Positions 180 through 64,000 of a DNA stretch of 64,000 nucleotides are shown in pieces (the first letter of the stretch is position 1; the number at the start of each line of letters is the position of its first letter). The notes below the pieces were generated by a model. That model made no database searches. It had not been told where the DNA came from and saw only the letters and a list, made by a program, of their open reading frames with translations. This DNA is from Plumapathes pennacea. Lineage: Eukaryota; Cnidaria; Anthozoa; Antipatharia; Myriopathidae. The DNA lies in NCBI GenBank assembly GCA_964036295.1, contig OZ038464.1, forward strand, positions 9,038,001-9,102,000, read 5' to 3'. The translations under genes and the position numbers were made by a program.

Positions 180-392
180 CACAAGGTGCCTCTTGTGCAA
201 TTTCAATGTTCTCTCCAACTAAGCAGGACTGCCGTTTCACCTCACATCCATTCCTATCTTGTACACCGTCTCTCGAACAAACAGATGCACTGGCCTCACC
301 GTCACACTCTGGGCAGATGCACACTGCTTTGCCGTCCTCGCTTCTGCAACCTATGTTGTAAGGAGCACTGCAGCCTTCTATCTCGCAGGGGT
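180..392 (-). CDS. Follistatin/Kazal domain, copy A
   Basis: Phase 1-1 exon with the same pattern as copy B. Its donor G|GTAAGT shows that the gene continues beyond the left edge of the window. Confidence 0.87.

Positions 393-64000: not shown

Follow-up and report, generated by a model that had tools for sequence, protein, structure and literature searches.

A candidate giant gene joining Tg1, Kazal, WAP and Kunitz folds with vWA and Ig modules in Plumapathes pennacea

Described systems and closest relatives

Equistatin of Actinia equina carries tandem Tg1 domains, as does the gene described here, but it has three of them, and the available parts of the source texts mention no adhesion modules (PMC11857728, PMC10889554, PMC7863939). 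The agrin-like skeletal proteins of Corallium rubrum are, like the product predicted here, secreted matrix proteins with serial FOLN/Kazal domains. The key of a figure covering seven proteases and four of these agrin-like proteins lists FOLN, TY (Tg1) and WAP; unlike our gene it has no vWA and no Ig, a comparison made by description from the accessible text (PMC7853314). WAP and vWA are found in the cnidarian matrix proteins NV2.11346 of Nematostella (a WAP/vWFA repeat protein) and Hcol3 of Hydra, as in our locus, but the accessible description, by which they were compared, mentions no Tg1, Kazal or Ig (PMC12549020). According to the same partial text, the mesoglea of adult Nematostella shows an increase in protease inhibitors, among them TIMP, Kunitz, Kazal and thyroglobulin-repeat proteins (PMC12549020). 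In Actinia fragacea, the accessible text places Tg1 and vWA among the commonest domains of uncharacterised proteins in all sample types, with Tg1 as a whole not highly present in the column (PMC11857728). A SCREP paper was set aside since its available text is unrelated to our gene (PMC6262176).

Among solved structures, agrin is the best PDB match to a profile of our Kazal domains (8 of 18); near the predicted C-terminus of our chain five Kazal domains stand in series. The best PDB relatives of the Tg1 profile (18 of 49 domains) are thyroglobulin, saxiphilin and the p41 cathepsin inhibitor.

The WFIKKN/GASP proteins, a vertebrate growth-factor-binding family, have the order WAP-Kazal-Ig-Kunitz-Kunitz-NTR, and the addition of Kazal has been placed in early deuterostomes, as far as the available text goes (PMC3427181). 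The head of our gene does not have this order, being WAP-Kazal-Kunitz-WAP-WAP, with one Kunitz and no Ig found in the head. The order WAP-Kazal-Ig-Kunitz-Kunitz is present in the database proteins P0001 and P0061 and in a paralogue on the same contig (C3:17.882-17.887M, L020), although P0001, in which Pfam matched no NTR, runs on into a Tg1 array. Such an order in cnidarians would either push the Kazal addition back or reflect convergence, and its occurrence in the paralogue bears on when the vertebrate family originated. The name WFIKKN did not appear among the 120 of 303 matches listed, which were mostly Kunitz-rich and many of them nameless.

The closest named relatives with these modules are anthozoan (Stylophora, Actinostola, Desmophyllum and Porites). 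P0001, a coral protein of 2642 aa, comes from a 9,424-base contig of source 'lgn', by which we infer the Logan assemblies of public reads; as its 7.9 kb of coding sequence fits in that contig, P0001 appears transcript-like. P0002 is 'Equistatin [Stylophora pistillata]', of 2251 aa. Both resemble our gene in joining WAP, Kunitz, a Tg1 array and vWA in one chain above Pfam cut-offs, with an Ig match just under the cut-offs (in P0001 24.4 and 22.8 bits against 30 and 23.7). A Kazal domain in P0001 was found by our own profile and is absent from its Pfam matches; the protein starts with a stretch that by eye is signal-peptide-like, and is 33% identical to our model over ~1,600 aa. They differ from our gene in length (2,251-2,642 aa), in their 21-26 Tg1 stretches, single vWA and four Kunitz, and in having no Ig-Kazal-vWA array. 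Their module set (WAP, Kunitz, Tg1 array and vWA in a predicted secreted chain) is present in our gene; their module order, taken as a sign of orthology, is not matched by it. By tblastn, 24 of 25 P0001 segments and 22 of 24 P0002 segments are better matched by the paralogue at C3:17.864-17.887M, where many P0001 Tg1 segments fall on one cluster. This paralogue reads WAP, Kazal, 17 Tg1, vWA, 2 Tg1, WAP, 6 Tg1; like P0001 it has two Kunitz exons ahead of the Tg1 run and a third behind the vWA, and its order and numbers are those of P0001 minus the last Kunitz and Tg1. A locus from C3:18.573M on has Kazal, WAP and Tg1 interleaved with Kunitz.

Other database proteins hold further combinations. 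P0061 is 69% identical to the head of P0001 and has Kazal_2 and I-set above Pfam cut-offs, and the Desmophyllum protein P0062 joins WAP, I-set, Kunitz and Tg1 by Pfam. P0017 (Actinostola) reads Kunitz-vWA-Tg1x4-vWA-Tg1x2-vWA-Tg1-vWA, two of the vWA being seen by our own profiles as first halves only, and aligns at 45% identity to model residues 274-758 (counted in the version of the model without the Kunitz). P0020 reads Kazalx4-vWA-WAP-vWA-WAP-vWA. To the initial annotation, no described animal protein was known to have this combination and size. As to combination this needs qualifying, for P0001 and P0002 already join WAP, Kunitz, Tg1 and vWA; as to size, no protein on the 10,226-aa scale was among the protein-search matches, whose candidate lengths were limited, and none of comparable size and content was found in the accessible parts of the literature, mostly open-access main texts. 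The combination is a family trait, partly known from database proteins, and not a one-off. What is unusual relative to the smaller known relatives is the size together with the freshly multiplied adhesion repeats.

The exon chain and its domains

The window is the whole 64,000-nucleotide stretch that was analysed (C3:9038001-9102000, in a searched genome of 290 Mb in 24 contigs). Positions below are window coordinates, negative values and values above 64000 lying outside. Flanks beyond both edges were fetched and scanned with seven module profiles of our own, and exons were anchored on domains, placed by our HMM profiles together with splice-site scores; they replace first exon-predictor runs that had given many tiny false exons and a split chain. 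The flank scan revealed that the window is the middle part of a minus-strand chain with both ends outside it. The resulting model has 140 exons over 144.6 kb on the minus strand and encodes 10,226 aa (1.12 MDa, 570 Cys) in the order SP-WAP-Kazal-Kunitz-WAP-WAP-vWA-Tg1x9-vWA-Tg1x32-vWAx5-Tg1x8-WAP-(Ig-Kazal-vWA)x12-Ig-Kazalx5-vWA. By our own profiles, the Tg1 one built from exons of this locus, the whole chain holds 49 Tg1, 20 vWA, 13 Ig, 18 follistatin/Kazal and 4 WAP domains on one strand; each vWA and Ig takes two exons, and one of the 49 Tg1 is split over two (Table 1).

Within the window, our profiles gave exactly the counts of the initial annotation, namely 37 Tg1 plus one partial, seven vWA, three Ig, three follistatin/Kazal and one WAP, the complete Tg1 running from 63315 to 15880, all on the minus strand. 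Outside it the chain adds 11 Tg1 (12 with the straddling one), 13 vWA, 10 Ig, 15 Kazal, 3 WAP and 1 Kunitz, and the 5' region there already holds WAP, Kazal, Kunitz, vWA and Tg1 together. The claimed union of Tg1, Kazal and WAP folds with vWA and Ig in one exon chain is therefore real and wider than claimed, Kunitz being a fourth inhibitor-type fold. The domain types are backed by Pfam searches of ten single exons and of spliced domains: three of three Tg1, one of one WAP and four of five vWA exons scored above the curated cut-off (the exception, 32200-32448, had 17.6 against 23.8), an array Kazal exon fell just below (21.1 bits against 22.8), and an array Ig and an array vWA joined from their exons matched Ig_3 (2.8e-17) and VWA (1.4e-41). 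All four WAP domains clear their Pfam cut-off.

Table 1 Features of the exon chain, in window coordinates
Feature	Position	Strand	Remarks
Signal-peptide-like exon	90081-90024	-	Encodes MTDMLKIWALLLLVYHSAL; strong phase-1 donor; ~26 kb beyond window edge
Kunitz exon	81675-81472	-	Pfam, E 2.3e-16 and 7.6e-19 in two runs
Straddling Tg1 domain	64156-63974 (in window 63974..64000)	-	Exon 64173-63964; own profile
Run of 29 Tg1 exons	35846..63332	-	Part of the x32 run starting outside window; one domain per exon, phase 1-1; own Tg1 HMM, Pfam PF00086 (genome search and three exons), splice-site model; 5' boundaries uncertain at 62102, 55589, 44392, 39490
Tg1 exons of 29-run	63332-63123, 62759-62556, 62102-61935, 61354-61139, 59877-59635, 59266-59054	-	
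Tg1 exons of 29-run	58884-58690, 58058-57846, 57489-57280, 57077-56862, 56413-56216, 55589-55404	-	
Tg1 exons of 29-run	55088-54876, 54631-54404, 54015-53821, 53437-53228, 52908-52693, 52309-52103	-	
Tg1 exons of 29-run	50597-50331, 49675-49463, 48859-48653, 44392-44117, 43999-43787, 40264-40052	-	
Tg1 exons of 29-run	39490-39176, 38305-38081, 37504-37295, 37191-36964, 36040-35846	-	
vWA no. 1, central block	34029..35288; exons 35288-34972, 34293-34029	-	MIDAS incomplete
vWA no. 2, central block	32199..33252; exons 33252-32909, 32448-32199	-	DxSxS lost; second exon under Pfam cut-off
vWA no. 3, central block	30647..31709; exons 31709-31366, 30896-30647	-	DxSxS lost
vWA no. 4, central block	28652..29651; exons 29651-29311, 28889-28652	-	All three MIDAS parts lost
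vWA no. 5, central block	27192..28315; exons 28315-27975, 27456-27192	-	DxSxS lost; first-exon acceptor poor
8 Tg1 exons, first four	26749-26543, 26009-25773, 25313-25107, 23991-23767	-	Span of all eight 15864..26749
8 Tg1 exons, last four	23211-23005, 22203-21991, 21548-21348, 16076-15864	-	
WAP exon	15408..15584	-	Pfam PF00095 8.7e-5, 23.2 bits against cut-off 20.8; acceptor poor
Truncated vWA half-exon	14979..15104	-	Ends in stop; between last WAP and first Ig
Ig, array copy 1	11665..12086; exons 12086-11950, 11809-11665	-	Own profiles; spliced Ig of a sister copy matches Ig_3
Follistatin/Kazal exon, array copy 1	11203..11415	-	Own profiles
vWA, array copy 1	5376..10967; exons 10967-10633, 5613-5376	-	5.0 kb intron between
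Ig, array copy 2	3262..5216; exons 5216-5080, 3406-3262	-	
Follistatin/Kazal exon, array copy 2	2800..3012	-	
vWA, array copy 2	1889..2564; exons 2564-2230, 2126-1889	-	MIDAS complete
Ig, array copy 3	641..1729; exons 1729-1593, 785-641	-	
Follistatin/Kazal exon, array copy 3	180..392	-	Array then continues outside window

The chain had initially been described as single and phase-compatible. Indeed, none of the 139 junctions of the 140-exon model is off-phase, but much of the chain lies outside the window, and agreement of phase says little about whether this is one gene: because nearly all modules start and end in phase 1, almost any order fits. None of the 61 model exons wholly inside the window contains an in-frame stop, and the sole stop flagged across the exons is that of the truncated vWA half-exon (15104-14979), which was excluded from the model and taken as a relic. 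Introns have a median of 383 nt and a maximum of 5,777 nt, and some splice sites score poorly with the splice-site model. Introns inside the window also hold a 617-aa open frame that by eye is non-LTR retrotransposon endonuclease/RT-like (18246-20096, minus strand) and a 247-copy GAT trinucleotide array with 84% match (20519-21260).

Under loose scan settings, 21 hydrophobic starts came up as candidates on the gene strand; several of them were polypyrimidine tracts read through ahead of an acceptor and were rejected. In a stricter scan of 174 kb (donor score >10, a threshold tightened after the loose scan), only the MTDMLKIWALLLLVYHSAL exon, with two nested ATGs, was left on the gene strand, and no candidate was found on the other strand. 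At the opposite end, the last vWA exon reads into a TAA at -54547, ~54.5 kb beyond the window edge and three codons past the final Cys, with no good donor, and the seven profiles had no match in a further 15 kb past this stop. An AATAAA past the terminal stop is uninformative, since such a motif also lies close to the read-through stop of 23 of 139 internal exons (background 0.26 per 400 nt). Downstream of the gene lie open frames that by eye are retroelement pol-like (-58464 to -63319; L036, L037) and, on the same strand as the gene, thiolase-like (-67155 to -67415).

Assignment to Tg1 rests on PF00086 scores above the curated cut-off and on the six-Cys CWCV pattern; exactly six Cys are present in 41 of the 49 segments and an exact CWCV in 28, exon 16076-15864 having four Cys instead of six, and pairwise identity among the Tg1 never exceeds 55%. 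Fourteen of the 20 vWA domains, namely the first, the last and every one of the 12 in the array, have a complete MIDAS, which we take to be DxSxS, T and D and scored with a pattern of our own. The six incomplete ones all lie next to or inside Tg1 runs. At the positions presumed to be reactive, the array Kazal domains have Asp-Gly at P2-P1 and the Kunitz has Ser at P1. In the genome search, PF07648 was passed by 6 of 18 Kazal domains, all outside the array, and the 12 array copies were absent among the matches listed.

The Ig-Kazal-vWA array

The most unusual part of the gene is its array of 12 Ig-Kazal-vWA units, which contributes three Ig, three Kazal and two vWA to the window and reaches -38835, followed by Ig, five Kazal, one vWA and the stop. 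Its 12 Kazal exons span 49 kb and share 99-100% protein identity, and coding identity is 98.5-99.6% among the 11 units compared (the twelfth, whose last Ig exon is divergent, was left out of the table). Seven of the 11 repeat intervals measure 3.47-3.49 kb, one 2.6 kb and three 6.5-8.4 kb, the last three apparently the result of insertions. The intron inside the vWA is 103 nt in 11 copies as against 5.0 kb in copy 1. Three array introns diverge by 0.5, 1.6 and 2.2% on average (copies >700 nt omitted), and the Ig-Kazal intron by 9% on average with the divergent last copy counted in. A 42-nt apparent intron in the vWA exon was rejected, the stretch being open coding in all 12 copies.

Codon variants among the units number 37, of which 22 are silent and 15 replacing, with a mean pN of 0.005 and a mean pS of 0.025 across 11 units, and no stop was found in any array exon of the model. 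The array is thus a recent amplification, kept intact under purifying selection. Coding identity this high could also arise if part of the array were a false tandem expansion of haplotypes in the assembly, but unit lengths vary from 2620 to 8403 nt and many of the codon variants are private to one copy, and we regard such an artefact as very unlikely.

One gene or two, and the role of the product

One good signal exon, one clear end, the absence of any gap >5.8 kb and a stock of modules common to both halves suggest that the Tg1 half and the Ig-Kazal-vWA half are probably one gene. A single transcript is nevertheless only presumed, given a vWA-Kazal locus with no Tg1 close by: C5:10456790-10467495 (plus strand), the closest relative of the array within the genome, reads Kazal-vWA-Kazal-vWA-vWA and is 53-68% identical to it (42% for the last vWA), and the only Tg1 on C5 among the matches listed is 1.2 Mb away. 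Two database proteins are likewise built without Tg1 by our own profiles, P0018 (Porites) of vWA only and P0019 as vWA-Kazal-vWA. These point to a distinct, though less probable, arrangement of two neighbours on one strand: a Tg1/vWA gene of equistatin type whose end would lie near 15864, followed by a gene for the Ig-Kazal-vWA array with its start close to the WAP exon at 15584. A weak candidate signal peptide, MEKHHSGMFNMFFINVVLAPSEV, indeed lies at 15639 just ahead of that exon, and a retroelement-like frame and the broken vWA lie around the junction. However, only ~175 nt lie between the stop reached by reading on past the last Tg1 exon (15814) and this candidate start, and the likeliest cleavage site of the candidate peptide is directly followed by Pro, which we assume to be disfavoured there. 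No AATAAA or ATTAAA occurs from 15864 until 14646, the motif being a weak guide, and the 5' part too alternates vWA with Tg1 and has Kazal and WAP, so that the halves share their stock of modules. Fusion of modular genes is, according to the accessible text, a known error of gene prediction (PMC4967905). The number of genes does not affect the combination of inhibitor folds with vWA, since the 5' half by itself contains WAP, Kazal, Kunitz, vWA and Tg1.

Exon chain, domain order, end exons, relatives and array are seen in the sequence, and from them we infer the single transcript and the role. On balance we lean towards one giant gene for a secreted modular protein of extracellular matrix or mucus that would work as a long multivalent adhesive scaffold. 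A protease-resistant rod would be built from the WAP-Kazal-Kunitz-WAP-WAP head and the string of 49 Tg1 domains, rich in disulfides, of which some might trap attacking cathepsins; the vWA of the amplified units, with complete MIDAS, could provide avidity for collagen or other matrix ligands, and the array Kazal may serve mainly as rigid spacers, as in agrin, and not as serine-protease inhibitors.

The initial annotation had instead inferred a polyvalent antiprotease protein of matrix or mucus; on this reading the main job would be multi-site inhibition of cysteine, aspartic and serine proteases in mucus or mesoglea, a proposal compatible with one or two genes. The intact six-Cys pattern of 41 of the 49 Tg1 segments and the presence of the thyropins p41 and saxiphilin among the closest solved relatives are consistent with it, as are, in the accessible texts, the inhibition of cysteine or aspartic cathepsins by sea-anemone equistatin (PMC10889554) and the adult rise of Tg1-, Kunitz- and Kazal-type inhibitors in Nematostella mesoglea (PMC12549020). 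Yet Tg1 is only occasionally employed as an inhibitor, according to the part of the source available, and its sequence by itself does not mark a Tg1 domain as a thyropin (PMC7863939). Moreover, the most recent amplification is that of Ig-Kazal-vWA, whereas the Tg1 have diverged to the identities given above, and the array Kazal, with Asp-Gly at P2-P1, score just under the Pfam cut-off. The Kunitz has Ser at what we take to be P1. Since the Kazal and Kunitz reactive residues look atypical, protease inhibition is unproven, and we judge inhibition as the main job unlikely. We favour an adhesive scaffold that would bind proteases incidentally or in defence, because the amplified unit has working-looking metal sites and the motifs of the six vWA by the Tg1 runs have decayed.

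If the chain is indeed one transcript, its product would rank with the largest multi-inhibitor matrix proteins in the animal kingdom. More tentatively, it is possible that the whole 10,226-aa chain comes from one transcript and that unequal exchange lengthens and shortens the array; individuals would then differ in protein length and in the number of vWA ligand sites. This would amount to a heritable dial for the stickiness of mucus or matrix, and corals and anemones would then join four protease-inhibitor folds with adhesion domains of integrin type in matrix proteins of megadalton size, whose adhesion array is labile in copy number. The gene is also a concrete candidate for the uncharacterised Tg1/vWA proteins of anemone proteomes.

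Two minor observations concern single modules. The genome contains clusters of many Kazal exons at C1:4325486-4592423 (minus strand) and C1:1043784-1201217 (plus strand), the first with several copies of equal score. Among the database matches, P0064, a 598-aa Kunitz protein 48% identical over 27% of the query, stands in a record labelled as an Acidobacteriota MAG and perhaps reflects animal contamination.
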